64,000 bases of DNA from Deltaproteobacteria bacterium. GTDB taxonomy: Bacteria; Myxococcota_A; UBA796; GCA-2862545. The stretch lies in NCBI GenBank assembly GCA_006226595.1, contig SBGP01000066.1, positions 62,001-126,000 on the forward strand. Reading direction: 5' to 3'. The translations under genes and the position numbers were made by a program. The notes beneath the pieces were generated by a model. That model ran no database searches. It had not been told where the DNA came from and worked only from the letters and a program-made list of their open reading frames with translations. Shown here one piece after another: positions 3,419 to 36,071 of this stretch (position 1 is the first letter of the stretch; each line of letters begins with the position of its first letter).

Positions 3419-4300
3419 ATGAGCGGCAAGGTGAAGACGTTCCAGGAGCTGATCCTGACCCTGGAGCGCTATTGGGCAGATCAGGGCTGCGTGCTGCTGC
3501 AGCCCCACGACATGAACATGGGCGCGGGCACGTTCCACCCCGCGACGTTCCTGCGTAGCCTCGGTCCGAAGCCGTGGCGCTGCGCGTACGTCCAGCCCTG
3601 TCGCCGCCCGGGTGACGCCCGCTATGGCGAGAACCCGAACCGCTTGGGTCACTACTACCAGTACCAGGTCATCCTCAAGCCTTCGCCGCCGAACAGCCAG
3701 GAGCTGTACCTCGGCAGCCTCGAGGCCATCGGGCTCAACCTCCGCGAGCACGACGTTCGCTTCGTCGAGGACGACTGGGAGAGCCCGACGCTGGGTGCGT
3801 GGGGCCTCGGCTGGGAAGTGTGGATGGACGGCATGGAGGTCACGCAGTTCACGTACTTCCAGCAGGTCGGTGGCATCAGCTGCAACCCCGTGCCCGTCGA
3901 GCTCACCTACGGCCTCGAGCGCCTCGCGATGTACCTGCAGGGCGTGGACAACGTCTACGACCTCGAGTGGGTCGAGGGCGTGAAGTACGGCGACGTGTTC
4001 CACCGCAACGAGGTCGAGCAGTCCAGGTACAACTTCGAGCACGCGGACACCGCGGTGCTCTTCGAGCAGTTCAACGCGACCTTCGCCGAGTGCCGCCGCC
4101 TGTGCGACCTCGGCCTCGCGCTGCCCGCGTACGACCAGTGCATCGCCACCTCGCACGCGTTCAACCTGCTCGATTCCCGCGGCGCGATCAGCGTCGCCGA
4201 GCGCCAGCAGTACATCCGCCGCATTCGCGAGCTGGCTTGCGCCTGCGCCGAGGCGTGGGTCGCCGGGATCGACGCGGAAGCCCAGGAGGTGTCGGCATGA
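3419..4300 (+). CDS. glyQ: Glycine--tRNA ligase alpha subunit
   Basis: Catalytic alpha subunit (293 residues) of the bacterial alpha2beta2 glycyl-tRNA synthetase, which charges tRNA-Gly with glycine and ATP. Class II motifs are clear: the [15 protein letters not shown] segment, [19 protein letters not shown], and [19 protein letters not shown]. The ATG at 3419 was chosen over an in-frame ATG at 3347 because it gives the standard N-terminus ([12 protein letters not shown]) and has GGAGG 8 bases upstream. The stop overlaps the glyS start (ATGA). A 109-base gap precedes it, so a promoter is likely there, but I could not identify a convincing one. Confidence 0.98.
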
Positions 4301-6402
4301 GCGAGCTGTTCATCGAGCTCTTCTGCGAGGAGCTGCCGCCGAGCTTCGTGCGTCCGGCCCTCGACTCGCTGACCAAGGGCCTGCTCGGACTCCTCGAGGG
4401 CGTCGAGCACGGTGCGGTCCGTACCTGGGCTACTCCTCGTCGCCTCGCGGTGTCGATCGCCGATGTTGCGGCGGGACGGCCGGCCACCGAGGCGCTGGTC
4501 ACGGGTCCGCCGGCGGACCGCGCGTGGGTCGATGGCGCGTGGACAAAGGCGGCGATCGGTTTTGCACGCGGCAAGGGCGTGGACGAGTCCGCGCTCGAGA
4601 TCGTCGATACCAAGCGCGGCAAGGTGGTGGCGGCGCGCGTGCGCGAGGGCGGCGAGCGGGCGTATGACCTGATCGCCGCGGGCCTCGAGGGCGTCGTGCT
4701 CGGCATCCCGTTCCGCAAGTCGATGGAGTGGGGGAGTGGCGGTCTGCGCTTCGGTCGCCCGCTGCACCGCGTGAGCGCGCTGCTCGGCGGCGAGGTCGTG
4801 AACACAACCGTCGGCGGGATCCGCACGGGTGCTTCGACCGAGGGCCACCGCCTGGCCTCCGACCGCGAGTTCGCGTTCACCGGCTCCGCGGACTGGGCCG
4901 ACGGGCTGCGGGCGCGCCAGGTCGAGCCCGATCTCGAGGACCGCGCGGAAATCATCCGCGGCATCCTCGACGAGGTCGAGTCCGAGCTCGGCTGTGACCG
5001 CATCGAGGACCCCGAGCTGTTCGAGGAGGTCCTGCACCTCGTCGAGTGGCCGGTGAAGGTCATCGGCACGATCGACCAGGACCTGCTGCACCTGCCGCCC
5101 CGGCTGCTCGTCGAGGCGATGAAGAAGCATCAGCGCTACTTCCCCGTGTTCGAGGGCGGGCGACTGACGAACCGCTTCGTGGTCATCGCCAACAACCCGT
5201 GGGCCGACCTCGAGCTCGTCGCGGAGGGCAACGCGCGCGTGCTCCGACCGCGCTTCTACGACGCCCGCTTCTTCTATGAGGAGGACAAGAAGACCTCCCT
5301 CGAGGCCCACGCGGCCAAGCTCGTGAAGATGCGCTGGATCCGCGGCCTCGGTACCGTCGCCGACAAGGGACAGCGCCTCGGTCGCCTGTGCGAGGCCCTC
5401 GCTGCCTCCTTTGGCGCGGACCCCGAGAGCGCGCGCCGGGCCGGTGAGCTCGCCAAGGGCGACCTGTTCACCCTCATGGTCGGCGAGTTCCCCGAGCTCC
5501 AGGGCCACATGGGCAAGCTGTACGCCGAGGCAGGCGGCGAGCGCGAGGCCGTCTCCATCGCCATCGAGGAGCACTACCTGCCGCGCTTCGCCGACGACGA
5601 CGTCGCGAGCACCCCCGAGGGCATCACCGCCGCGGTCGCCGACCGCCTCGACACGCTCGTCGGCTGCTTCGGTATCGGCCTCAAGCCCAAGGGCGGCGAC
5701 CCGCAGGGGCTGCGTCGGGCCGCGCTTGGCGTAGTGCGCACGCTGATCGCCAACGGCTTCGACCTCGATCTCGGCTCGCTCTTCCACATCGCGCTCGACG
5801 TGTTTCACCAGACCGCGGGTGGCGCCGAGGGGTTCGAGGCCTGGACCAAGGTCCACGGGGACGGACAGACCACTGCCCAGGACGCGGACGAGCTCGTGGC
5901 CGAGCTGGTCGAGTTCACCCTCGCGCGCTTCAGCGCCTCCGAGGTCGCGGACGGCGCGTCCGCGGATGTCGTCGATGCGGTGCTCGCCGTGTCCAAGCCG
6001 CACCCGCTGGACCTGCACAACAAGGTCTCCGCCATCAAGGGCGTCGCGGGCACCGACGAGTTCGGCGCGATCATGGAGACCTTCAAGCGCGTGCTCAACA
6101 TCACCAAGGACGAGCAGGTGGGCGCGCCCGCGCCCTCGAAGCTGCGCGAACCCGCCGAGAAGGCGCTTGGTGACGCCATCGCTCGGGTGTCGAGCAGTGC
6201 GGCGCTGACCGCGGTCGAGCCCGACTACCCGGCCGTGCTCTCCGAGGTACTCTCCCTGCGTGAGCCGGTGGACCAGTTCTTCGTCGACCTGATGGTCAAC
6301 CACGACGATCCCGAGATTCGGGCAGTCCGACTCGGCCTTCTCTCTCAGGTCTCCGGCCTGTTCCGCCGGGTCGCTGACTTCTCCCGCATCTCCACTCGAT
6401 GA
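4297..6402 (+). CDS. glyS: Glycine--tRNA ligase beta subunit
   Basis: Beta subunit (701 residues) of the heterotetrameric glycyl-tRNA synthetase. It provides tRNA recognition and the HD-like and anticodon-binding regions that complete the alpha subunit. The N-terminus [15 protein letters not shown], the [15 protein letters not shown] segment and the [13 protein letters not shown] segment are typical, and the length matches the family (about 690). The ATG overlaps the glyQ stop by 4 bases, giving translational coupling and a 1:1 subunit supply. ppdK begins 10 bases after its stop, so the three genes probably share a transcript. Confidence 0.98.
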
Positions 6403-6412
6403 GAGGCACGTG

Positions 6413-9085
<2,673 letters not shown>

Positions 9086-24853: not shown

Positions 24854-25774
24854 ATGGCGCGCGATTCCCGTCACCTCGTGGGGCTGTCCACGCTGTCTGG
24901 GGAGGCGATCGCGTCGATCCTCGACGATGCGTCGCGCCTCCGGGATCGCGTGCGCGAGAACGGTCCGTCGACCGACCTCGCGGGTCGCGTGGTGGCACTG
25001 ATGTTCATGGAGCCGTCGACCCGGACGCGCTCTTCCTTCACCACCGCGGCGTTCAAGCTCGGGGCCCAGGTCCTGCCCTTCGACGCCGCCTCGAGCTCGA
25101 CGACCAAGGGCGAGAGCCTGCTGGACACCGCCCGCACCGTGGTCGCGGCCGGCGCGGATGCCATCGTCATCCGCCACAAGCAGGTTGGTGGCGCGCACTT
25201 CCTCGCGTCGCGGCTCTCCGTCCCGGTGATCAACGCCGGCGACGGCATCCACGAGCACCCGACCCAGGGCCTGCTCGATGCGCTGACCCTGCGTGATGCC
25301 CTCGGTACTCTCGAGGGCAAGACGGTGGCCATCGTCGGCGACATCCGCCACAGCCGCGTCGCGCGCAGCAACTGCTTCGCCCTGCCCAAGCTCGGTGCAC
25401 GGGTGCTGCTCGCCGGACCGGGAACCCTGTGTCCGCCCGAGCTCGCCGCGCTCGGAGTCGAAGTGCGCCGCAACATCGACGACGTGCTCGACGAGGCCGA
25501 CGCGATCATGCTGCTCCGCATCCAGCGCGAGCGGATCGGTGGCGCCCTGTTGCCGAGCATCGACGAGTACCGTCGCTTCTACGGGCTCGACGTCGAGCGC
25601 CTCCAGCGTCGCCCGGAGCTGGTCGTGCTCCACCCGGCTCCGATGAACCGCGGCGTCGAGGTCGCCCACGAGGTGGCCGACTCGCACCAGTCCCACGTCT
25701 TCCGCCAGATGGAGAACGGGGTGTACGTGCGCATGGCCGTGTACATGCGCGCGCTCGAGCAGGAGGTCGTATGA
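24854..25774 (+). CDS. pyrB: Aspartate carbamoyltransferase catalytic chain
   Basis: Joins carbamoyl phosphate and aspartate in the second step of pyrimidine synthesis (306 residues). The carbamoyl-phosphate loop MEPSTRTRSSF (about 51-61), the STTKGES loop, HEHPTQGLLDAL, GDIRHSRVARS and the HPAPMNRGVE segment are all intact. GAGGAGG lies 5 bases upstream of the ATG. The stop overlaps the start of the inactive dihydroorotase homologue by 4 bases. No PyrI regulatory chain is visible, so it is probably the class that assembles with a dihydroorotase-like partner. Confidence 0.98.
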   Translation: MARDSRHLVGLSTLSGEAIASILDDASRLRDRVRENGPSTDLAGRVVALMFMEPSTRTRSSFTTAAFKLGAQVLPFDAASSSTTKGESLLDTARTVVAAGADAIVIRHKQVGGAHFLASRLSVPVINAGDGIHEHPTQGLLDALTLRDALGTLEGKTVAIVGDIRHSRVARSNCFALPKLGARVLLAGPGTLCPPELAALGVEVRRNIDDVLDEADAIMLLRIQRERIGGALLPSIDEYRRFYGLDVERLQRRPELVVLHPAPMNRGVEVAHEVADSHQSHVFRQMENGVYVRMAVYMRALEQEVV

Positions 25775-26868
25775 GTCGCATCTTGCGAGACGTTCGGGTG
25801 CTCGATGCCCTCTCCGGGCGGGACGAGCGGGCCGATGTCGCGGTGCTCGGACCTTCGGGCGACGTCGATGGTCGCGGACTCGTCCTGTGCCCGGCCTTCG
25901 TCGACCTCGCGGCCCACCGCGAGAGTGCCGCGGACGATGCGGCGGCGACGTCCGGAGGATTCGCGACCTGTCTCGGCACCCCCGGGCTTGCCGCACGCGA
26001 GGAAGGCCCCCAGCGGTTGCGCATGGCCGAGCTGACCGTGCGCTCTGCGGGCGACGAGCTCGCGGACATGGGCTCCGCGGTCGCCGACGGCGCGGTCGCG
26101 ATTGGCGATGGCGGCAAGGCCCTCGGGTCCTCGCGCACCCTGCTCGCCGCGCTTCGCTACGCCGCGGACCTCGACGTGCCCGTGTTCCTGCGCCCGTCCG
26201 ACCCGGATCTCGAGCACGGCGGACTCACCCGCGCGGGGTCTCACGCGGTGCTCCTCGGTCTGCCCGGCGTCCAGCCCGAAGCCGAGGCCATGGGCGTGTA
26301 CCGCGCCTCGTTGCTCGCGAAGGCTTCCGGGTGCCGCGTGCACCTCACCCAGCTGTGGTCCGCGCAGGGCATCGCCGCGCTTCGCGAGGTCAAGGCCAGC
26401 ACGCCCGGGCTCACCGCGTCGACGACGCCACTGCATCTCACCCAGCGTCCGGAGCGCATCGAAGAGCTTGCGTACGCCGGCTGGGCGCGCATTCACCCGC
26501 CGGTGGGCGACGACGAGGACCGCAGGGCGCTGATCGAGGCCCTCGTGGACGGCACCCTCGACGCCGTCGCCAGCCATCACCGCAGCGTTCCACGTCATCA
26601 GCAGGACTGCGAGCTCGGCATCGCGGTGCCCGGAACCCGCACCCAGGCGGCGACCTTTGGTCTGGTGCACCGCGCCACTGGCTCCCTCGAGGTGTCTGTG
26701 CGCGTGCTCACCGCCGGACCTCGCAGCGTGCTCGGGCGTGCGGTCGACGAGCGCTGGTGGGCGCTGGTCGACCCCGAGGCAACGTGGACGGTCGGGGACG
26801 GCCCGACGGCGCTCGCCGGAGAGTCCGTCCGCGGGCGGGTCGTGGAGCTCGTCCAGCCCCAGCGCTAG
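25771..26868 (+). CDS. Dihydroorotase-like protein (PyrC' type), probably non-catalytic
   Basis: A 365-residue amidohydrolase-fold protein encoded directly behind pyrB (ATGA overlap, AGGAGG ahead of the start). The fold and length fit class I dihydroorotase, but the metal ligands are lost. The usual DxHxHLR at the end of the first strand reads FVDLAAHRES (Asp45, Ala47, His49), and the PHHL segment reads PLHLTQ. The catalytic TDHAPH segment reads ASHHRSVPRH, with no Asp (about 267-276). Pseudomonas has such an inactive PyrC', needed only to build the aspartate transcarbamoylase dodecamer; the same role is inferred here. An active dihydroorotase should be elsewhere in the genome. Confidence 0.9.
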   Translation: MSRILRDVRVLDALSGRDERADVAVLGPSGDVDGRGLVLCPAFVDLAAHRESAADDAAATSGGFATCLGTPGLAAREEGPQRLRMAELTVRSAGDELADMGSAVADGAVAIGDGGKALGSSRTLLAALRYAADLDVPVFLRPSDPDLEHGGLTRAGSHAVLLGLPGVQPEAEAMGVYRASLLAKASGCRVHLTQLWSAQGIAALREVKASTPGLTASTTPLHLTQRPERIEELAYAGWARIHPPVGDDEDRRALIEALVDGTLDAVASHHRSVPRHQQDCELGIAVPGTRTQAATFGLVHRATGSLEVSVRVLTAGPRSVLGRAVDERWWALVDPEATWTVGDGPTALAGESVRGRVVELVQPQR

Positions 26869-27137: not shown

Positions 27138-27614
27138 ATGAAGCGCAACCCCGTCACGCCCGAGGGCCTCGCCAGTCTCGAGGCGGACCTCAAGCACCAC
27201 AAGTCGGTGCTTCGTCCCCAGAACGTCCGCGACATCGAGGAGGCCCGCGCCCACGGCGACATCTCCGAGAACGCCGAGTACGAGGCCGCCAAGGAGCGCC
27301 AGGCGCTCATCGAGGGACGCATCGCGCAGCTCGAGAACCTCGTGGCCACCGCCGAGGTGGTCGACGTGATGAAGCTTCCTCAGGACGGCCGTGTCGTCTT
27401 CGGGACCACCGTTGTCCTCGAGAACGAGGAAGGCGACGAGCGCACCTGGCGCATCGTCGGCGCGACCGAGACCGACGTGAATGCTGGCAAGATCAGCTAC
27501 CTCACCCCCGTCGCCAAGGCCTGTATCGGCAAGCGCGAAGGGGACGAGGTGGTGGTGCCGGCTCCGGGCGGCTCCCAGACCTGGGAGATCGTCGAGGTTC
27601 GCTACGAGGCCTGA
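27138..27614 (+). CDS. greA: Transcription elongation factor GreA
   Basis: A 158-residue Gre factor that rescues backtracked RNA polymerase by stimulating transcript cleavage. The N-terminal coiled coil has the acidic tip residues in ARAHGDISENAEYEAAKERQ (Asp and Glu, about 35-55). The C-terminal FKBP-like domain has a YLTPVAKACIGKREGD pattern. The start follows AGGAGAAG. Ahead lies a 269-base spacer after the PyrC' gene, with several small GC-rich inverted repeats but no promoter I can define. The RecG-like gene begins 14 bases after its stop, so the two are likely co-transcribed. Confidence 0.97.
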   Translation: MKRNPVTPEGLASLEADLKHHKSVLRPQNVRDIEEARAHGDISENAEYEAAKERQALIEGRIAQLENLVATAEVVDVMKLPQDGRVVFGTTVVLENEEGDERTWRIVGATETDVNAGKISYLTPVAKACIGKREGDEVVVPAPGGSQTWEIVEVRYEA

Positions 27615-27628
27615 TCTGGGGGTGTTCG

Positions 27629-30271
27629 ATGGACGCCCAGGCTCCTTCGGTCGAGTCGACCCCTGAGCAGGCGATTCCGCTAGCTGACCTGGACCGCGCG
27701 CTGTCCCCGGTTCGCCGTACGGTGGCGTGGGCAGTCGAGCGTGGGCGTGTGCCCGGCTTTGCCGAGGCCACGCTGAGTCCATGGATCCATCGCGCGCTGG
27801 CGCTGGACCTTCCCGAGGTGATGCGCGAGCAGCTGGTCGAGATGGCCGGCATGCTCGGTGGCATCGAGCTCCTCGACGAGGAAGCCGCCAGCGAACGCAT
27901 GGTCGCGATTGGCGTGCAGCTGGCGCGCTTCGACGCGATTGCCGGCCTGCCGATTCCCGGGGGACCGCCGCTTCAGCGCTTGCGTCGCCCACGCGTGGCT
28001 CGGCGTCCGCGTCATGTCGAGGCCGACGCGACCGAGACCACCGAGGCCTCGGAGAGCGCCGCGACGCCCACGCAGGCCGAGGCGCCTGCGCAGGCCGAGT
28101 CCAGCAGCTCGCGCTCGCGTCGGTCGCGCCGAGATCGGCGCGGAGGCCGTCGGCGCAGTGCGCCGGAGCCGAAGCCGCAGCCGGTGGCCGCGCCGCCGGA
28201 GCCGAAGCCGCGCCCGAGCTGGCAGCTGTCGTCGGCACCGCGCTCCCTCGACGAGATCCTCGACGAGGACCTCGCCGATCAGCTTGCGGACGTCGGCATC
28301 GAAGACCTGCAGACCCTGGTTCTTCGCCAGCCGGTGGACGTCGAGGTCGTGCGCCCCATCCTTGGGGCCGGTCGCCCGATCGAGGCGGGTCGTCGGGCGC
28401 TCGGCGGGCGGGTTCGCTCGCGGTGCACGCGCCTCCGCCCGGACGGAACGGCGACCACCGAGGTCGTGCTCCACGGGGCTGGCCCGGTCGTCGCGACCTG
28501 GGACGGTGTGCCGCGCCGCGTGCTCGAGCGCCTGCCCGAGGGCGGGCGGGGCGTGCTGGTCGGCCGGTACGAGGCCGGTGAGAACCCGCGCATGCTCGAC
28601 GCCGAGGTGGCGCGCGACGACGGTCGCAAGGCCGCACGTCTCGCACGCTACGGCGTGGTCGGGCTTCCCGACGAGGTCATGCGCGACGCCCTGCTCGAGG
28701 TTGCCCCCGAGCTCGAGGTCCTCCGCGACCCGCTTCCGAACCGTGTCCTCCGGCGCGGAAACCTGCCGACCGTGGGGGAGGCGCTCGCGCTGGTCCACTA
28801 CCAGGCGGACTCGCGTCCCGAGGCCCGTCAGCGGCTGGCCTTCGACGAGGCGCTCGGTCTGTGGCTGTCGAGCTCGATGGGCCGCTTCGAAGGCAGTCGC
28901 CGCCGAGGCCTGCCGCACCCGCTCGTCCACGGGCTGGTAGGCCGACTCGAGCACGTGCTCGGCATCGTGCCCAACGACCACCAGCAGCTCGCGCTCGACG
29001 AGATCAAGCGCGACCTCATCTCGCCGCAGCCGATGCTACGCCTGCTCACTGGCGACACGGGGGCCGGAAAGGGCCTCGTTGCCTTGCTCGCCGCGGTGCA
29101 CGTCGCCGAGAGCAAGGGCCAGGTGCTCTTCGACCTGCCAGATGCCGCGAGTGCGGAGTACCGCTTCCTGTTCGCCGAGCCCCTGCTCAAGGAGCTCGGT
29201 CTGGTCGCGCGCCTGATCCACGGCGAGCCGAGCCGTGGTCAGCGCGACGCGATCAAGCGTGGCGAGGTCCACGTGGTCTTTGGCCACGACCTGCTCGGTG
29301 CGCAGCTCCAGTTCCGTCGCCTCGGTCTCGTCGTCGCTCTCGAGCACGAGCAGGACGGCGCGACCAGCGAGGCCATCCTCCAGCTCAAGGCACCGCGTCC
29401 CGACGCGCTGGTGATCAGCACCAGCCAGGTGCCGTCCGAGGCACTCGTCGCGCACTACGCCGAGCACGACATCTCGGTGCTGCCGCTCGCGCACCGCGCG
29501 CCCATGCGGGTGCAGGTGCTGCCGGCGCCGCAGCGTGCGGTCGCGTACTCGGCGGCAGCCGCGGCCTTGGCGCGCCAGCAGCAGGTCATCGTGATCTTCC
29601 CGCTCGTCAACGGGCAGGACGCCCTCGACGGACGCGAGCTGTCGCGGGTCAAGGCGGCGCTGGAGTCCGACGCCTTCCCCGGTAGCCGCGTGGGCGTGTT
29701 CCACGGGGGTATGGCGCGAGACGAACGCTATGCGACCTACGAGGACTTCCGACGTCATCGCTTCGACGTGCTCGTCTCCACGGGGCCCATCGAGATGGGA
29801 CCGCCGGTACCGCGAGCCGCGGTGACGATCATCGAGCAGGCGGACCGCATGGACCCGATCCGGCTCCAGCGGGCGTGCCGCCACCTGTCCAAGTCGCAGC
29901 TCGAAAGCGTCGAGACCTTCTTCGTGACCGGTGATGTGCCGGACCCGATCGGACTGCTTCGCGCGGAGCGAGTGGCAACCCGCGGGGACGAGCTCCAGCT
30001 GGTGCGGGAGCTGCGCGAGGGCTCGCTGCCCGAGCCACCGTCCACGCGCTTCCTCGATGTGCGGCGCGATCGCGAGCTGCTGCTCGCGGCGCATCAGCTG
30101 CTCCACGCGAGTGCGCGCACCGATCCGACCCTTCGTCGCTCGATCCTCCGCGACGCCGTCGGCGACGTCGAGGTGGTGTGGAAGATGCTCCACGCCGGCG
30201 AGACGCTGGACCTTCCCGACCGCACGGGCTCGGGGGGACGCCGTCGCCGCCGCCGCCGGAAGCGCAAGTGA
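27629..30271 (+). CDS. RecG-like protein with degenerate helicase motifs
   Basis: An 880-residue protein clearly derived from the RecG branch-migration helicase but apparently unable to work as one. Residues 1-115 are helical. Residues about 130-200 are a low-complexity Ala/Glu/Arg/Pro linker. Residues about 205-410 resemble the RecG wedge/OB region, and 430-790 align with the two helicase domains. Walker A reads GDTGAGKG (475-482), losing the Thr of GKT. The DEQH box reads LEHE (571-574). TATP reads STSQ (about 597), VGVDVP reads EMGPPVP (about 720), and QLRGRVGR reads RLQRACRH (745-752). The tail is GGRRRRRRRKRK, probably nucleic-acid binding. It is coupled by GTGA to a small SRPBCC gene and sits behind greA. 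A structural or regulatory DNA-binding role is inferred. Confidence 0.8.
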   Translation: MDAQAPSVESTPEQAIPLADLDRALSPVRRTVAWAVERGRVPGFAEATLSPWIHRALALDLPEVMREQLVEMAGMLGGIELLDEEAASERMVAIGVQLARFDAIAGLPIPGGPPLQRLRRPRVARRPRHVEADATETTEASESAATPTQAEAPAQAESSSSRSRRSRRDRRGGRRRSAPEPKPQPVAAPPEPKPRPSWQLSSAPRSLDEILDEDLADQLADVGIEDLQTLVLRQPVDVEVVRPILGAGRPIEAGRRALGGRVRSRCTRLRPDGTATTEVVLHGAGPVVATWDGVPRRVLERLPEGGRGVLVGRYEAGENPRMLDAEVARDDGRKAARLARYGVVGLPDEVMRDALLEVAPELEVLRDPLPNRVLRRGNLPTVGEALALVHYQADSRPEARQRLAFDEALGLWLSSSMGRFEGSRRRGLPHPLVHGLVGRLEHVLGIVPNDHQQLALDEIKRDLISPQPMLRLLTGDTGAGKGLVALLAAVHVAESKGQVLFDLPDAASAEYRFLFAEPLLKELGLVARLIHGEPSRGQRDAIKRGEVHVVFGHDLLGAQLQFRRLGLVVALEHEQDGATSEAILQLKAPRPDALVISTSQVPSEALVAHYAEHDISVLPLAHRAPMRVQVLPAPQRAVAYSAAAAALARQQQVIVIFPLVNGQDALDGRELSRVKAALESDAFPGSRVGVFHGGMARDERYATYEDFRRHRFDVLVSTGPIEMGPPVPRAAVTIIEQADRMDPIRLQRACRHLSKSQLESVETFFVTGDVPDPIGLLRAERVATRGDELQLVRELREGSLPEPPSTRFLDVRRDRELLLAAHQLLHASARTDPTLRRSILRDAVGDVEVVWKMLHAGETLDLPDRTGSGGRRRRRRRKRK

Positions 30272-30648
30272 TCCTGCACGCCGAGCGTGAAGTCCCGCTC
30301 GAAGCGGCGACCTTGCGTGCGCTCGTGCTCGACCCGGCGCAGTGGAGCCTGTTCCCCGGCATCGAGTCGATCGCCGTCGAGGGCTCCGAGGTCCAGCTCG
30401 CCCTGCGCGGTCCGCGCCGCTTGTCGGTGCGGGTGGAGCTACGCGAGACCGAGGAGGGGGCGGTGGCCGAGCTCGTCGAGGGCGACCTGCGAGCGCTGCA
30501 CGTCGAGGTGCGTATCCGCGCGGTGGAGAAGGGGGCCTACGTCGTTCTCGACATGGACCTGCAGGCTCCCTACGCCGTGCCGGGACCGCTGCTCGCGGAG
30601 CTCGAGCAGGTCACGCTCGCGCGATGGCTAGGGGCGCTCGGCGGCTGA
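30268..30648 (+). CDS. Small SRPBCC (START-like) protein
   Basis: A 126-residue protein whose pattern fits the SRPBCC / coenzyme-Q-binding-like fold: an opening strand VILHAEREVPLEAATLRALVLD-like, then WSLFPGIESIAV, a run of amphipathic strands, and a long C-terminal helix after AVPGPLLAELEQV. The GTG start overlaps the RecG-like stop (GTGA), so translation is coupled and no other start fits. Its final 21 bases overlap the convergent hydrolase gene. The fold binds hydrophobic ligands in many proteins. Why it is coupled to a RecG relative is unclear. Confidence 0.72.
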   Translation: MILHAEREVPLEAATLRALVLDPAQWSLFPGIESIAVEGSEVQLALRGPRRLSVRVELRETEEGAVAELVEGDLRALHVEVRIRAVEKGAYVVLDMDLQAPYAVPGPLLAELEQVTLARWLGALGG

Positions 30649-31566
30649 CGCGTCGGCAGCGGTGGCATCCGACGGCGTGATCGCCTGCGTGTAGACGTCG
30701 TGCGCGACGAGGAAGCGCTCGATGCGCCGGTTGATCGTCTCGGGGTACTCGACGATCGCCGCGTGCGAGCCTTCGGCGAGGATGAACAGCTCGGAGTTCG
30801 GGAGCAGCTCGGCCATCTTCTCGCTGCGGTGGAGCGGCGTGAACAGGTCGTTCTCCCCGGCGATGACCAGCGTCGGCGTCTCGCACTGGGGCAGGAAGTC
30901 CGTGAGGTCGTGGTCCGCCATCAGCTCGCACATGCGCATGAACACCTGGGGGTCGAGGTGCACCATGTGGTCGAGGTAGTTCTCGAGGTCGCGCCGCTGG
31001 CAGTAGTACTTGTCGACCAGTCCGGTGCCGCGTCCGACCGCGAAGGACAGGGGAGAGGCGTAGATCGGGCGCAGCATCCGGCCCGTGTTGCGCCCGCCCA
31101 TCTTCGCCATCGCGTTCAGCACGCCGAAGGCGCGGCGGCTGTACGGGCTGTCCATGAACGTGTCGAGGGGACGCGCAAAGGTGCCGAACATGGGCACGAG
31201 CGCAGCGGCACGCTCGGGGAACTGCTTGGCGAACTCAAGGATCACCTGGCAGCCCATGGAGTGGCCGAGCAGCACCGCGGGCTGGTCGATCCCGGCGGCA
31301 TCCATGACCAGCGCCAGGTCTCGGGCGTTGTTCTCGACGGACAGGTCCGCGGCGCGGACGTCCTTCGGGGTGCCGGAAAGGCCGTGTCCTCGGTAGTCCC
31401 AGACCACCACCTGGAAGTGCTCACGGAAGTGACGCACCACGTACTTGAAGAAGAACGTGGATACGCCGACGCCGTTGCAGCATACGAGCGGCGGGCCTTC
31501 GCCCACCGAGCGCCAGTAGAGGCCGATGCCATCGTCGGTCTGTGCGAAGCCGCTGTCGATCGTCAT
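30628..31566 (-). CDS. Alpha/beta hydrolase
   Basis: A 312-residue alpha/beta hydrolase fold protein. The oxyanion region CCNGVGVSTFFF, the WDYRGHGLSG turn, the nucleophile elbow LLGHSMGCQV (Ser near 102), the acid in GENDLFTP and the catalytic His in AEGSHAAIVE give a full triad. No signal peptide, so it is cytoplasmic. The substrate is unknown; relatives include haloperoxidase-like and ester hydrolases. It follows the three membrane-protein genes on the same strand after 21 bases. The 3' end overlaps the convergent SRPBCC gene. Confidence 0.9.
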   Translation of the reverse strand: MTIDSGFAQTDDGIGLYWRSVGEGPPLVCCNGVGVSTFFFKYVVRHFREHFQVVVWDYRGHGLSGTPKDVRAADLSVENNARDLALVMDAAGIDQPAVLLGHSMGCQVILEFAKQFPERAAALVPMFGTFARPLDTFMDSPYSRRAFGVLNAMAKMGGRNTGRMLRPIYASPLSFAVGRGTGLVDKYYCQRRDLENYLDHMVHLDPQVFMRMCELMADHDLTDFLPQCETPTLVIAGENDLFTPLHRSEKMAELLPNSELFILAEGSHAAIVEYPETINRRIERFLVAHDVYTQAITPSDATAADASAAERP

Positions 31567-31587
31567 GCGTTCTCCGCGCCGTTCGTA

Positions 31588-32376
31588 TCACGCATCGGGG
31601 AACAGGGCGTCGTGCACACGCACCTTGAATGCGATCCCGAACATCGGCCCGATGATCGGGATGTTTCCGGCCACCATGTTGATCAGCACGGCCACGAGGG
31701 TCAGCGTACCCGCGCCGCCGATGTCGCCCGTCACCGTCGAGGCGGACGTGGTGAGCGCCTGGATGGGGCCGCGGCGATCGAGGGCGACGAGCGAGCTGGC
31801 CCAGAACAGCACCCACATCGCGACGAATGCCCCGACGTACACGAAGAACACTCCGATGAACGCCGCGAAGCTCGCCGCGAGGGACACCGCGACCACCGAG
31901 GGCAGGTCCACGAACATCGTCGAGAAGGGGGAACCGATGCTCAGCGGTTCTTCGCCTCGGATGTGTTTCTGCATGGCGCGCTCGGTGCTCGCGTGCATCG
32001 GCATGAGCACGCCGGCGATCACCGCGAAGAACAGCAGGAAGATCAGGAACATGCCGCCGAACATGAGCAGCAGGCCGATCACACCGCCCGCGTCACCGCC
32101 GATGGCGGCGCCGATGCCCATGCCACCGAACGCGGCGATGAACATGCCGAAGTACAGCACGAAGATGCTGCCGACGATGACCACCATGCTCACGCCGAAG
32201 TAGGACAGGCCCGCCATGGCGTACGGGCCGATGTCCGCGGTGAAGTGCTCGATGGTCTCGTTGAACAGGTCACCGACGGCGGGCAGCTCGCCGGGCGCCC
32301 GGGTCTTCTTCACCGGCGCGACGGCGTCGTCGTCCTTGGGCTCGTCCTTGGGCGGCTCGAATGCGTCGTCGCTCAT
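31588..32376 (-). CDS. Multi-spanning membrane protein of unknown function
   Basis: A 262-residue protein with an acidic, Pro/Lys-rich cytoplasmic N-terminus (residues 1-40) and about five or six hydrophobic segments (about 50-75, 85-115, 145-175, 180-205, 225-250). There is a conserved-looking amphipathic loop (MPMHASTERAMQKHIRG). The pattern resembles DUF4013-type or yckC/RDD-like membrane proteins, but I cannot assign it. The ATG at 32376 was chosen because GGAGGA lies 5-10 bases upstream and it overlaps the preceding stop by ATGA. Gly-rich helices (GGMGIGAAIGGDAGG) suggest close helix packing. Confidence 0.72.
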   Translation of the reverse strand: MSDDAFEPPKDEPKDDDAVAPVKKTRAPGELPAVGDLFNETIEHFTADIGPYAMAGLSYFGVSMVVIVGSIFVLYFGMFIAAFGGMGIGAAIGGDAGGVIGLLLMFGGMFLIFLLFFAVIAGVLMPMHASTERAMQKHIRGEEPLSIGSPFSTMFVDLPSVVAVSLAASFAAFIGVFFVYVGAFVAMWVLFWASSLVALDRRGPIQALTTSASTVTGDIGGAGTLTLVAVLINMVAGNIPIIGPMFGIAFKVRVHDALFPDA

Positions 32377-32744
32377 GCGTCCTCCGGCGGGGATGGTACG
32401 CCAGGGGTAGGGGACCGCGCGAGCCGGAGCAGCCGGACGATGAGCGCCACCACGCCTGCGAGGCCGAGCCAGGTCGCGAGGTACAGCGGGGGGCCGAGGC
32501 GGTTGTAGGCCCACGCGCGTGACAGCTGGGCGCGCGACATCGCCGTGAACGACCGGGTGAGGCCGCAGGTGGCGCAGGGCTCGCCCGCGGCGCGGAGCGG
32601 ACAGGGCTCGGTGAGCTGGACGGTGCCAGACTCGATGGCCTCGGGGCTGACCGCGACGCTCACCGCCAGCACGGCGACCAGGGGGACGGCGACCAGCGCG
32701 AGCACGGCGATCAGGTACGTGAGGATCAGGCGTTGGCCGCTCAC
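32373..32744 (-). CDS. DUF2752 family membrane protein
   Basis: A 123-residue protein with two hydrophobic segments (about 6-30 and 90-112). The DUF2752 hallmark lies in the middle: CPLRAAGEPCATCGLTRSF, then MSRAQLSRAWAYN. Function unknown. The GTG at 32744 is taken because the preceding gene stops 4 bases upstream, and longer versions would overlap it with a basic, non-membrane leader. The stop overlaps the next start (ATGA). The family is often encoded beside small membrane proteins such as its neighbour at 32749. Confidence 0.75.
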   Translation of the reverse strand: MSGQRLILTYLIAVLALVAVPLVAVLAVSVAVSPEAIESGTVQLTEPCPLRAAGEPCATCGLTRSFTAMSRAQLSRAWAYNRLGPPLYLATWLGLAGVVALIVRLLRLARSPTPGVPSPPEDA

Positions 32745-32748
32745 GCGC

Positions 32749-33111
32749 CTAGGCGAGACCGAGCATCGCGCTGACGAACGACGCGAACCACAGCGCCAGT
32801 GTCGGCCCACACGCGAGCACGATGGCGATCAGGCTCAGCAGCAGGCCCACGACCGAGAGGCCGAGGCCGACCTTGGCCTTGCCCTGCTGCTCTTCGGACA
32901 GCTCTTCGTCGCCCATCTTCATGAACCCGAAGACCATGCCTCCCGCGCTGAGCAGGGCGGCGAGCGCCGAGAGGATCGACGACGCCATCGGCAGCAGCAT
33001 GCAGCACAGGCCGAAGAAGGCCGCGGCCACCGAGAGTACGGCGGAAATCAGACCGAGTACGGCCGAGACGGCACCGACGATTTGGGCGGTGCTTCCGCTG
33101 GTGTTCTCCAC
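32749..33111 (-). CDS. Small membrane protein of unknown function
   Basis: A 120-residue protein with three hydrophobic segments (about 8-32, 33-62, 78-115) and a charged loop (MGDEELSEEQQGKAK). It has the look of DUF4190-type small membrane proteins often found next to DUF2752 genes. No catalytic motif is visible. It is first of a four-gene minus-strand set (32749, 32373, 31588, 30628) with 4-base spacing or overlaps. A tRNA gene and its terminator lie just upstream. Confidence 0.65.
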   Translation of the reverse strand: MENTSGSTAQIVGAVSAVLGLISAVLSVAAAFFGLCCMLLPMASSILSALAALLSAGGMVFGFMKMGDEELSEEQQGKAKVGLGLSVVGLLLSLIAIVLACGPTLALWFASFVSAMLGLA

Positions 33112-33181
33112 GAGGCCTCCAAGACCCCGCGACGATACCGCGGCCGGGCAGGCGTGGGGCCGAGAATCGGGGCCACCAACG

Positions 33182-33209
33182 AAAACGGCCCTCCGAAGCG
33201 GAGGGCCGT
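33182..33209 (-). terminator. Rho-independent terminator of tRNA-Ala
   Basis: A 10-bp perfect stem (ACGGCCCTCC, 33185-33194, with GGAGGGCCGT, 33200-33209) and a 5-base loop, followed on the minus strand by TTTT (33185-33182). It begins 6 bases after the tRNA 3' end. Confidence 0.85.
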
Positions 33210-33214
33210 CTAGG

Positions 33215-33290
33215 TGGTGGAGGATACGGGACTCGAACCCGTGACCTCAGCAATGCGAATGCTGCGCTCTCCCAGCTGAGCTAATCCCCC
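33215..33290 (-). tRNA. tRNA-Ala (anticodon CGC)
   Basis: 76 bases including an encoded CCA. The acceptor stem GGGGGAT pairs with ATCCTCC (one G-U pair). The D arm contains AGCTCAGCTGGGAGAGC. The anticodon stem CAGCA/TGCTG encloses the loop TTCGCAT with anticodon CGC, which reads the GCG alanine codon. The T arm contains GGGTTCGAGTCCC. All arms are intact and a good terminator follows. GCG is a frequent Ala codon in this GC-rich genome, so a dedicated CGC isoacceptor makes sense. Confidence 0.95.
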
Positions 33291-33300
33291 AGGCCCGCGG

Positions 33301-33328
33301 CATGTAACACCATGGTCCGAACGGGCAA
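33301..33328 (-). promoter_or_regulatory. Candidate tRNA-Ala promoter
   Basis: On the minus strand, TTGCCC (33328-33323), a 16-base spacer, then TACATG (33306-33301), ending 10 bases before the tRNA 5' end. A weak sigma-70-like match, supported mainly by position. Confidence 0.35.
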
Positions 33329-33337
33329 GGGAAGTCG

Positions 33338-33364
33338 GAGCGAGATCGCGAGACGCGATCGCTC
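33338..33364 (-). terminator. Hairpin downstream of the TPR-zincin gene
   Basis: GATCGCG-AGA-CGCGATC forms a perfect 7-bp inner stem, extended by GAGCG/CGCTC after a 2-base bulge. It lies about 75 bases after the stop at 33440, ahead of the tRNA promoter, so it may end the chaperone-associated transcript. No T-run follows. Confidence 0.4.
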
Positions 33365-33439
33365 TCGTTGTGGGGTCCCGGTCGATCCACGGCGTGCAAG
33401 CGCCGCTTTGTCCGCACCGGCGGACCGCGGAATTCTGGC

Positions 33440-34273
33440 CTAGTCGAGCCCGCGCTGCTCGAGGTCGTCTTCGTCGAGCCCGAGGAAGTGCCCGACCTCG
33501 TGGAGCACGGTGATCTGCAGCTCCTCGATCAGTCGGTCGCGGTCGGCAGCCATGCGCTCGAGATTGCGTCGGAAGAGCACGATGGTGGCGGGCAGCGTCG
33601 CGAACGGGCCCTCGGTCGTGCGGTCCATGAGGCTCGAGCCTGAGAAGAAGCCGAGCAGCATCGCCGGGGACGCTGGCGGGTCGAACGAGGCACAGGTCTC
33701 GTCGTCGGGCAGCTCCTCGAGGAGGATGGCGACGTTCTCGAGATAGGCGCGGATCGAAGGGTGCATGGCCATCAGCGCCTGCTGCACCACGGCCTCGACC
33801 AGGGCATCGTCCATCGGGGTTGGCGGCGCGTAACCCTCGGGATCGAGACGGAAGGCCTTTCGGTAGTCGCGCTGTGCGCCCGCTTCGTCGCCGCGCCGCT
33901 CACGGAGGAGGGCACGGACGTAGTAGCCCTCGGGCTCGCCGGGGTCGGCGCGAATGGCGCGAAGGGCCGCGTTGCGCGCTTCTTCGTAGCGCAACTGGTC
34001 GAAGAGCACGCTCGCGAGTCCACTCCACGACGAGGCGTGCTGGGGATCGGCGCGCAGGGCCGCCCGGTAGTGCTCCTCGGCAGCCTCGGGCTCCTGCAGG
34101 TCGCGAAGTGCGTCGCCGAGCAGGAAGTGGGCACCGGGGTGTCCGGGGTCGACCTCGAGGACCTGCGTGCACAGGTCGAGCACGCGCTCGATGTCACCGC
34201 GTTCGAGCGCAGACTCCGCCGCATCGAGCTGGCGGTCGATCTCGCTCCGCACGGGCTCGCGCGGAGGGCTCAT
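33440..34273 (-). CDS. TPR protein with zincin-like metallopeptidase domain
   Basis: 277 residues. Residues about 10-135 are three or four tetratricopeptide repeats (ALERGDIERVLDLCTQVLEVDPGHPG-type units, GDALRDLQEPEAAEEHYRAALRADP-type units). Residues about 150-277 are a Zincin_1-family metallopeptidase: PATIVLFRRNLERMAADRD, then the zinc motif HEVGHFLGLDEDDL (HExxHxxGxxE/D), with two His and the catalytic Glu intact. No signal peptide. The start overlaps the stop of the J-like protein gene (ATGA), so it is part of the chaperone cluster. TPRs could dock Hsp70 tails or clients and the zincin could cleave them; that is inference. Confidence 0.85.
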   Translation of the reverse strand: MSPPREPVRSEIDRQLDAAESALERGDIERVLDLCTQVLEVDPGHPGAHFLLGDALRDLQEPEAAEEHYRAALRADPQHASSWSGLASVLFDQLRYEEARNAALRAIRADPGEPEGYYVRALLRERRGDEAGAQRDYRKAFRLDPEGYAPPTPMDDALVEAVVQQALMAMHPSIRAYLENVAILLEELPDDETCASFDPPASPAMLLGFFSGSSLMDRTTEGPFATLPATIVLFRRNLERMAADRDRLIEELQITVLHEVGHFLGLDEDDLEQRGLD

Positions 34274-35979
34274 GGCGTGACTTGGTAGTCGTAGCGCACG
34301 GTGGCGTAGTCACCCTCCTCGAGAGGGTGCACGTACACCGCAGCCGCCTGTCGGGTCAGGCAGGTGCGCACGCGCGGATCGTTGATGCCGTCGCCTTCCA
34401 TCTCGACGCCCTGAGCGCGACCGCTCTGGCGGATGTGGATGCGAACGGTTCCGCTCATGGTCTTGCCCGGCTCGGCTGCGATGGCGATGCACGCGTCCAT
34501 GGCCTTGGAGCGCGGCTTCATCACCTTCTGGACGACCTCCTGGTCCAGGGTTCCCTGGATCATCTGGGCCGTGGGCTTGAAGTCCATCGCTTCGGTGAGC
34601 TCGAGCATCACCGGCACCTCGAGCGCCTGGTCGGCGGGCACGGTGATCTGCTGCTCGTAGGTGCGGAAGTTCCGCTGGGACACGCGCAGCTTCACGCCGC
34701 CGGTCGGCGGGTTGGCCACGTAGACCACCGAGCCGCTGCCCACGGACTGGCTGTTGAGGAGCACGTCGTCCGCAGAGGGGTCGATCTGGATCGTGAGGCC
34801 GGGCTGTCCGCCGCCCTGGATCGTGTTCATCGAGCCGAGCAGGACCGCGAGGCCGATGGCGAGAATGGCTGCGACGGCCAGGAAGGCTGTCACCGGGCGG
34901 ATCTTGCGCCGCTTCGCCTCGAAGACGATCTGGGCGCGATCACCCCGCTCGGTGACGATGTGGATGGCGCCGGTGGCCTCGGCCTCCTCGAACTCGGGGA
35001 GGATGGTCACGCGCAGGGTCTGCTCGTTGGTGGTCGGCGAGAGGTGCGCCGGCTCGACCCGCAGCCACTCGGGCGCGGTCGAGGTGACGAAGCCGTTCAT
35101 CGGCATCGCGGTGCGGAGCCGGATCTCGTCGTGCACCGGGGAGTTGGCCACGCCGAAGCGGCGTACAGGCTCGCCGAAGATCTCGAGTCGCGGCGCACCG
35201 GGCACGGTGTCGGGCATCGCGGTGCGCTGGCGGACCGGAGGTGCCGTGGGGGCCTTGGCGCCCGACGGGGTGGGCGTGGACTCGCGCTGGGTCGCTGGGG
35301 GAGCGGTGCTCTGGCGGGCGAGGTCGTACGCCTCGCGGGTGCGCGGGTCGCCGAGTACGCGCCAGGCCTGGTCCGCGGCCTCCATGCGGCTGCGGGCCGC
35401 GGCGGGCTCGGGGGTGCCCTTGGCCTCGCGGTAGGCGGTCCGGTAGGCGTCGTAGATCGAGTCGCGGGACGCCGCGTTGTTCACGCCGAGCACGGCGTAG
35501 TGATCGGACGCCTTCTCGGACTCGGAGAGCTCCGGCAGGGGAGCGGCGACGCCCATCTCCGTACACAGGCGATCGAGCGTCTCCTGGAACGTCTGCTCGC
35601 TGATGCCGAGCTCACCGGCCTGGTGACGAAGGAACTCGGCCTGTTCTCCGGTGAGGCGCCCGCCCTTGAGCACGCCCTTGATGGTCATCTCGAGCACGGG
35701 CAGGTGCTCGGACTCCTGCCGACGACGCACGTCGTCGATGTACTCGAGCGGCGTCTGGAGCACGGCATCGAGCGCGCTGAAGTGCTTGATCATGAACAGC
35801 GCTTGCTTCTTGTACTTGGGGTTGCTCTGCATCCCCTGCATGTACTTGCGCTTTTCCTTGAGCTTGGCGCGCAGCTCGTCGACGGACGCGGTGTGGTCCA
35901 TGCCGAGGTAGGCGAGCAGATCGGAGGCGCCTACGAGAGTCGAAAACTCGTGAGCCAGCTCCAGGTTCTTTCCGCTCAT
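34270..35979 (-). CDS. Membrane-anchored J-like protein with AgmX-type C-terminal domain
   Basis: A 569-residue protein. The ATG at 35979 follows GGGAG and is preferred over 36006. Residues about 15-85 hold a helical domain (LLAYLGMDHTASVDELRAKL, then YKKQALFMIKHFSALDAVL). Residues 158-225 look like a J domain (SDHYAVLGVNNAASRDSIYDAYR, ending WRVLGDPRTREAYD) but lack the HPD tripeptide. Residues 225-265 are a Pro/Ala/Thr linker and 265-350 a strand-rich domain. One membrane helix lies at about 362-382. Beyond it are a PEGA-like segment (LLNSQSVGSGS, about 400-450) and an AgmX/PglI-type end (MDACIAIA, GTVRIHIRQSGR, RVRTCLTRQAAAVYVHP). It would link the cytoplasm to the periplasm. It has its own candidate promoter and overlaps the TPR-zincin gene. 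Confidence 0.8.
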   Translation of the reverse strand: MSGKNLELAHEFSTLVGASDLLAYLGMDHTASVDELRAKLKEKRKYMQGMQSNPKYKKQALFMIKHFSALDAVLQTPLEYIDDVRRRQESEHLPVLEMTIKGVLKGGRLTGEQAEFLRHQAGELGISEQTFQETLDRLCTEMGVAAPLPELSESEKASDHYAVLGVNNAASRDSIYDAYRTAYREAKGTPEPAAARSRMEAADQAWRVLGDPRTREAYDLARQSTAPPATQRESTPTPSGAKAPTAPPVRQRTAMPDTVPGAPRLEIFGEPVRRFGVANSPVHDEIRLRTAMPMNGFVTSTAPEWLRVEPAHLSPTTNEQTLRVTILPEFEEAEATGAIHIVTERGDRAQIVFEAKRRKIRPVTAFLAVAAILAIGLAVLLGSMNTIQGGGQPGLTIQIDPSADDVLLNSQSVGSGSVVYVANPPTGGVKLRVSQRNFRTYEQQITVPADQALEVPVMLELTEAMDFKPTAQMIQGTLDQEVVQKVMKPRSKAMDACIAIAAEPGKTMSGTVRIHIRQSGRAQGVEMEGDGINDPRVRTCLTRQAAAVYVHPLEEGDYATVRYDYQVTP

Positions 35980-36071
35980 CCGACTCCCGGCCATCACTCG
36001 AGGCACGGCTGTTGCGCACTGGGCTCATCGCGACGCACGGCGCGTAAGCCATGCGGTTCCCAAGCCCTCGG

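Follow-up and report, generated by a model that had tools for sequence, protein, structure and literature searches.

A probable RecG pseudohelicase in the ancestral recG position across six families of one bacterial order

RecG (1GM5; TIGR00643) is an ATP-dependent translocase of branched DNA. The consensus of its TRG loop has been described, and T. maritima RecG needs the loop for ATPase activity and for reversing forks (PMC6213257). In E. coli, RecG is proposed to deny PriA access to 3' flaps (PMC4027168). The main cellular role of RecG is debated, and in most bacteria its binding and motor activities are inseparable. A precedent for a fork-binding protein with a silent motor comes from D. 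radiodurans PriA, which has neither ATPase nor unwinding activity and binds both fork DNA and DnaB (PMC4504706). For RecG, we found no report of a pseudohelicase in the open-licence literature. Here we describe a RecG homologue encoded in the window, by which we mean the whole stretch of 64,000 nucleotides that was analysed, and compare it with its relatives.

The gene starts 14 bases after the end of greA, and its frame opens with ATG and runs through 880 codons without interruption. GC content by codon position (GC1/2/3 of 0.81/0.49/0.86) shows the normal periodicity of coding DNA and resembles that of the neighbouring genes. The protein matched the RecG model NF008168 (E 3.5e-69), and T. 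maritima RecG (1GM5) aligned with it from the wedge through the motors (E 6e-47); sequence homology to the RecG orthologous family extends along the wedge and both motor lobes. The match to TIGR00643 (E 1.1e-52) reached 180 bits, far below the equivalog cut-off of 659. The preliminary description of this DNA, which had reported an intact 880-residue frame and an alignment with RecG along the wedge and both motors, was therefore borne out on both points.

Table. Features of the recG locus. Positions are those of the window unless another locus is named; residues are those of the 880-residue protein.
Feature	Residues	Position	Strand	Remarks
pyrB		24854..25774	+	ancestral operon neighbour
pyrC-like gene		25771..26868	+	overlaps pyrB
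greA		27138..27614	+	ancestral upstream neighbour
pseudo-RecG gene	1-880	27629..30271	+	genome's sole RecG homologue; open frame, RecG models, profile search
N-terminal helical domain	1-108	27629..27952	+	pLDDT about 90-95 over 21-100; ancestral, shared with canonical RecGs of the phylum
Ala/Arg/Pro linker	109-205	27953..28243	+	mostly disordered; pLDDT <50 at 113-146 and 148-179
OB-fold wedge domain	206-340	28244..28648	+	Trp291 kept; aromatic pin F204 (T. maritima) replaced by D292
motor lobe 1	447-612	28967..29464	+	homology to 1GM5, model, structural alignment
former P-loop GDTGAGKG	475-482	29051..29074	+	canonical GDVGSGKT
Asp505 at motif Ia position	505	29141..29143	+	Thr in all canonical RecGs read
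former motif II LEHE	571-574	29339..29350	+	canonical DEQH
former motif III STSQ	597-600	29417..29428	+	canonical TATP
motor lobe 2	613-770	29465..29938	+	homology, model; lowest or near-lowest dN/dS
former motif V EMGPPVP	722-728	29792..29812	+	IEVGVDVP to IEMGPPVP
former motif VI RLQRACRHLSK	745-755	29861..29893	+	Arg745 replaces Gln673 (T. maritima)
TRG loop remnant and C-terminal helices	771-862	29939..30214	+	TRG Gln/Gly lost
Arg/Lys C-terminal tail RRRRRRRKRK	871-880	30239..30268	+	basic tail common to orthologues
SRPBCC-like gene		30268..30648	+	overlaps recG stop by GTGA; GTG start; not conserved
alpha/beta hydrolase, TPR-zincin, DnaJ-PEGA row		30628..36006	-	convergent, downstream
degenerate RecG of genome G124		L198 (G124:C277:54000-62500), 3464-8143	-	very long acidic/basic linker, no Arg tail

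In the window protein, none of the SF2 motifs I, II, III, V and VI is intact. To place this loss, we aligned 43 orthologues from 43 genomes of the window's order with about 120 canonical RecGs from elsewhere, the nearest families of the class included; the number of proteins that could be scored differs by residue and lies between 39 and 42 in the order. The P-loop Lys is kept in 29/41 members and the Walker B Glu in 39/42, but the P-loop Thr survives in 1/39, and the Walker B Asp, the His of DEQH, the motif III Arg and the motif V Val651 in none of 42. Within motif VI, Arg680 (T. maritima numbering) is present in 2/39 and Arg683 in 9/41. The canonical RecGs hold nearly all of these residues at 96-100%. 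Of six key catalytic residues, a protein of the order has three at most, and some members have no P-loop at all (genome G002, for example, reads APSETQQM). The motif changes had been noted before for the window protein, and GKG, LEHE, STSQ and EMGPPVP stand as written; motif VI had been read in the wrong register, since QLHQLRGRVGR lies opposite RLQRACRHLSK, which places QLRGRVGR opposite RACRHLSK. Elements that couple the RecG motor to DNA are affected as well. The wedge aromatic F204, which we take from 1GM5 to be the fork pin, is found in 2/42 members, compared with Phe in 102/117 canonical proteins, and the TRG loop (G-P/A/V-G...Q-S/T-G) has gone from the order's proteins, which lack its Gln and Gly. 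Genomes that carry the orthologue span six families, and the alignment indicates that loss of the ATPase/helicase motifs is a trait of the whole clade and not of one odd gene. Single-protein searches of genome and viral contig collections returned no relative of the window protein; an alignment-based search of genome contigs recovered canonical RecGs, which were used as controls, and one member of the order (CAJXRZ010000022.1).

A structure model built from 25 orthologues had a mean pLDDT of 85, with the linker largely disordered. Comparison by Foldseek and VIA-align placed RecG 1GM5 (Z 27.1, 602 residues, rmsd 13.7) and Mfd at the top, and identity to 1GM5 was 23% over the 602 structurally aligned residues. 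The predicted structure thus keeps the RecG/Mfd fold, and the rmsd of 13.7 suggests a different set of the domains.

New residues have become fixed in this lineage, at 95-100%. The Thr of motif Ia, present in all canonical proteins, is Asp in 37/41 members and Glu in a further 3/41. Gln673 of motif VI (Gln in 117/119 canonical RecGs) has become Arg in 41/41, corresponding to Arg745 of the window protein. His434, Arg426, Arg461 and Pro725 are also newly fixed. The charged ones among the fixed residues sit where DNA contacts and catalytic motifs used to be. At the C-terminus, an Arg-rich tail was present in all 25/25 orthologues whose C-terminus was read, where 6-11 of the last 15 residues are basic, compared with 0-5 in canonical proteins, and 15 further members of the order likewise have a basic tail. 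Among 254 coding-like open reading frames in the loci fetched from the order, 18 carry such a tail and all of these are the pseudo-RecG; no canonical RecG that we read has one. The tail is therefore an addition, as had been proposed. The same had been said of the Ala/Arg/Pro linker, which is real and differs in length among orthologues, but here the comparison points the other way. An HMM of the N-terminal domain matched the N-terminus of a canonical RecG from the same class (genome G037; E 7e-14) as well as further RecGs from the phylum, and the G037 protein has a Pro/Ala-rich stretch after this domain. Because the HMM matches canonical N-termini of the phylum, the N-terminal domain is ancestral, and so is a linker after it.

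Whether the genome also has a canonical recG had been raised as a check. A search with the RecG model in the window's assembly, which is 97% complete, returned Mfd, the pseudo-RecG, a PriA and some generic helicases, but not a canonical recG. The relatives carry Mfd and normally one RecG-like gene per genome. No second RecG was seen in the order's genomes, which are draft assemblies: 63 genomes had no RecG-spanning match above 348 bits. Five full or long RecG copies from f7 and f8, which are sister families within the class, score 513-628 bits. The row pyrB-pyrC-greA-recG also occurs in class-mates with a canonical RecG (G037, locus L093; G032, L094; G160, L199; G158, L202), so that the window gene occupies the position of their canonical recG. 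The proteins of the order group into a single clade (SH-aLRT 100 in one tree and bootstrap/SH-aLRT 100/100 in a second), within which the families mostly group as vertical descent predicts. Because the slot matches that of canonical class-mates and the order has no other RecG, these data indicate that the sole recG orthologue was converted in place into a pseudohelicase in the ancestor of the order. A paralogue standing beside a canonical RecG was ruled out by the lack of a second RecG in these genomes, and an assembly artefact of metagenome-assembled genomes was ruled out by the recurrence of the same gene in the same slot in dozens of assemblies.

The conversion may be older still. A degenerate RecG is also encoded next to greA in genome G124, which belongs to a different order of the class; the hydrolase gene lies downstream of it there too. 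The G124 protein shares with the order the change of the motif Ia Thr to Asp and of Gln673 to Arg, and in the tree it falls on a long branch between the order and the canonical RecGs. Motif loss therefore probably predates the split between the order and the G124 lineage, a single loss being the simplest reading; the alternative is a second, parallel loss in the G124 lineage. Elsewhere in the phylum, RecG was not found in 45 of the 113 genomes sampled, which gave only Mfd and PriA-like or generic helicase matches, and the gene has apparently been lost in several families.

We calculated dN/dS by the NG86 method with our own script. The pseudo-RecG gave 0.098 for G004-G016, 0.16 for G023-G027 and 0.23 for G000-G001, the last value being rough as dS is also high in this pair; all three are broadly similar to the values of neighbouring genes. 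A further two pairs, more distantly related, gave 0.43-0.44 with dS near saturation. Constraint is strongest in the motor lobes and the C-terminal part: for the two closest pairs, values were lowest in the motor lobes (0.00-0.08) and highest in the N-terminal domain and linker (0.16-0.41). Frames are intact in the order genomes that we read. The gene is thus under purifying selection, as the preliminary description had argued when it proposed a selected pseudohelicase and not decay; the frameshifted orthologues that would have spoken against it were not seen in the genomes read, its suggested dN/dS comparison of orthologues gave 0.10-0.23 in the three closest pairs, and the gene is the only RecG of its genome. 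The dN/dS values and the intact frames lead us to reject a pseudogene. Other helicases of these genomes are normal: almost all of the Mfd proteins read are intact, PriA motifs are retained in nearly all of the 18 proteins read, and RuvB scored above its cut-off in 27/29. A general loss of helicase motifs in the clade was ruled out on these grounds, and the loss is therefore specific to RecG.

The neighbours of the gene carry less information about function than had been thought. The position behind greA had been taken as a hint of function, but greA also lies directly upstream of canonical recG in class-mates, so the arrangement is inherited. Coupling to the SRPBCC-like gene had been given the same weight; this gene occurs in only five genomes (G000, G001, G010, G013 and G014), all of the window's family, and evolves fast, with 40% identity and a dN/dS of about 0.49 between congeners. 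The convergent row downstream adjoins recG in much of the order, and its hydrolase gene is also found in G124. The pyrC-like gene has no Pfam match and falls far under dihydroorotase cut-offs, and its product reads AAH at the expected HxH metal site. Inactive PyrC' proteins are known from Pseudomonas, and this gene probably encodes one, which would give the row a second pseudoenzyme.

Taken together, it is highly probable that the window protein is a RecG pseudohelicase. ATP hydrolysis is strongly predicted to be lost, and the protein would neither translocate nor reverse forks. Many members retain a G-x-G-K loop, with Glu in place of the Walker B Asp, and these may bind nucleotide without hydrolysing it. 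A working ATPase with unusual motifs could appeal to the kept P-loop Lys and Walker B Glu, but it is very improbable: nearly all members have lost the Thr of the P-loop, the Asp of Walker B, the Arg of motif III, Arg680 and the TRG Gln, each protein retains three at most of the six key catalytic residues, and several have no P-loop. We give less credence still to a decaying gene on its way out, following the route by which other families of the phylum lost RecG (not found in 45 sampled genomes), because frames are intact and dN/dS is low; the gene is intact across six families, with dN/dS of 0.10-0.23 in close pairs and residues fixed at 95-100%. If the protein is a pseudohelicase, its descent, fold and Arg tail lead us to favour an ATP-independent nucleic-acid-binding scaffold as the likelier role. 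It would most likely bind nucleic acid (by descent, branched DNA), using its wedge, lobes and basic tail, and act as a scaffold or blocker, for instance one that covers flaps or forks or keeps a partner in place at them. By analogy with E. coli, a non-hydrolysing RecG could, as a conjecture, keep flaps from PriA simply by covering them. The ligand need not be the ancestral one: loss of the wedge pin and TRG loop is a warning that ligand or geometry may have changed, and branched DNA may no longer be bound. For the Arg tail, RNA or another acidic surface could be as good a ligand as DNA.

More specific roles can be proposed with less confidence. Tentatively, the motor lobes may have been welded into a static nucleic-acid clamp, in which new charges at former motif positions, instead of ATP, hold the lobes together and the Arg tail adds affinity; the charges would be Asp505 of motif Ia and Arg745 of motif VI, together with Arg748 in most members, forming a putative lobe-to-lobe salt bridge. 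It is unlikely that the protein is instead an inactive structural subunit, like RecC or AddB, whose inactive motor would place a working helicase or nuclease on the DNA. The catalytically dead lobes are among the most constrained parts and contain new fixed residues, as expected of a protein interface, but no partner gene is linked: greA, pyrB and pyrC are older than the change, and downstream lie just an opposite-strand hydrolase and the patchy SRPBCC gene. Less likely again is that it has turned into an RNA- or nucleoid-binding protein of a general kind, without a role at forks, in which the tail and basic linker bind and the RecG core is a stable platform. Such a role would suit a tail that all complete orthologues carry and that neither the rest of the 254 nearby coding-like frames nor any canonical RecG read has, as well as the lost wedge pin and TRG loop; however, the tail is short and the strongest constraint falls on the globular lobes. 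Overall, a pseudohelicase made in place and acting as an ATP-independent binding scaffold or blocker is the best explanation, and we hold it to be somewhat favoured by the balance of evidence.

An order in which the only RecG has no motor, with sisters that keep the engine and other families that have no gene, would provide a series in which to probe what RecG does without ATP. The protein would be the second bacterial fork-remodelling helicase to have become a pseudoenzyme across a clade, after Deinococcus PriA. If the clamp is real, then a selected, ATP-independent function of RecG has outlived its motor for at least the age of one bacterial order.

RecC and AddB also retain a helicase fold structurally after catalysis was lost; they are SF1 proteins in a known nuclease complex. 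The likeness to them is that of a fold outliving catalysis, and the pseudo-RecG has no known partner. Mfd (TRCF) has related motor lobes and a TRG element, and a separate, intact Mfd is present in the same genomes. With RecG itself, the window protein shares the gene slot, the OB wedge, the two SF2 lobes and the C-terminal helices, and with canonical RecGs of the phylum also the N-terminal domain; it differs in that the ATPase motifs and arginine fingers have been lost along with the TRG loop and wedge pin, and in having gained an Arg tail. The closest parallel is PriA of Deinococcus-Thermus, likewise a bacterial fork-remodelling SF2 helicase whose catalytic motifs were lost throughout a clade (PMC4504706), and like that protein the pseudo-RecG descends from a helicase, has lost the catalytic residues and is held under purifying selection. 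PriA belongs to another helicase family and is described as having lost motifs I and II, and its lack of ATPase activity and its continued binding of DNA and DnaB are established by experiment (PMC4504706), whereas in the pseudo-RecG, described here from sequence, the loss extends to every motor motif as well as to the TRG loop and wedge pin, and a new tail has been acquired.
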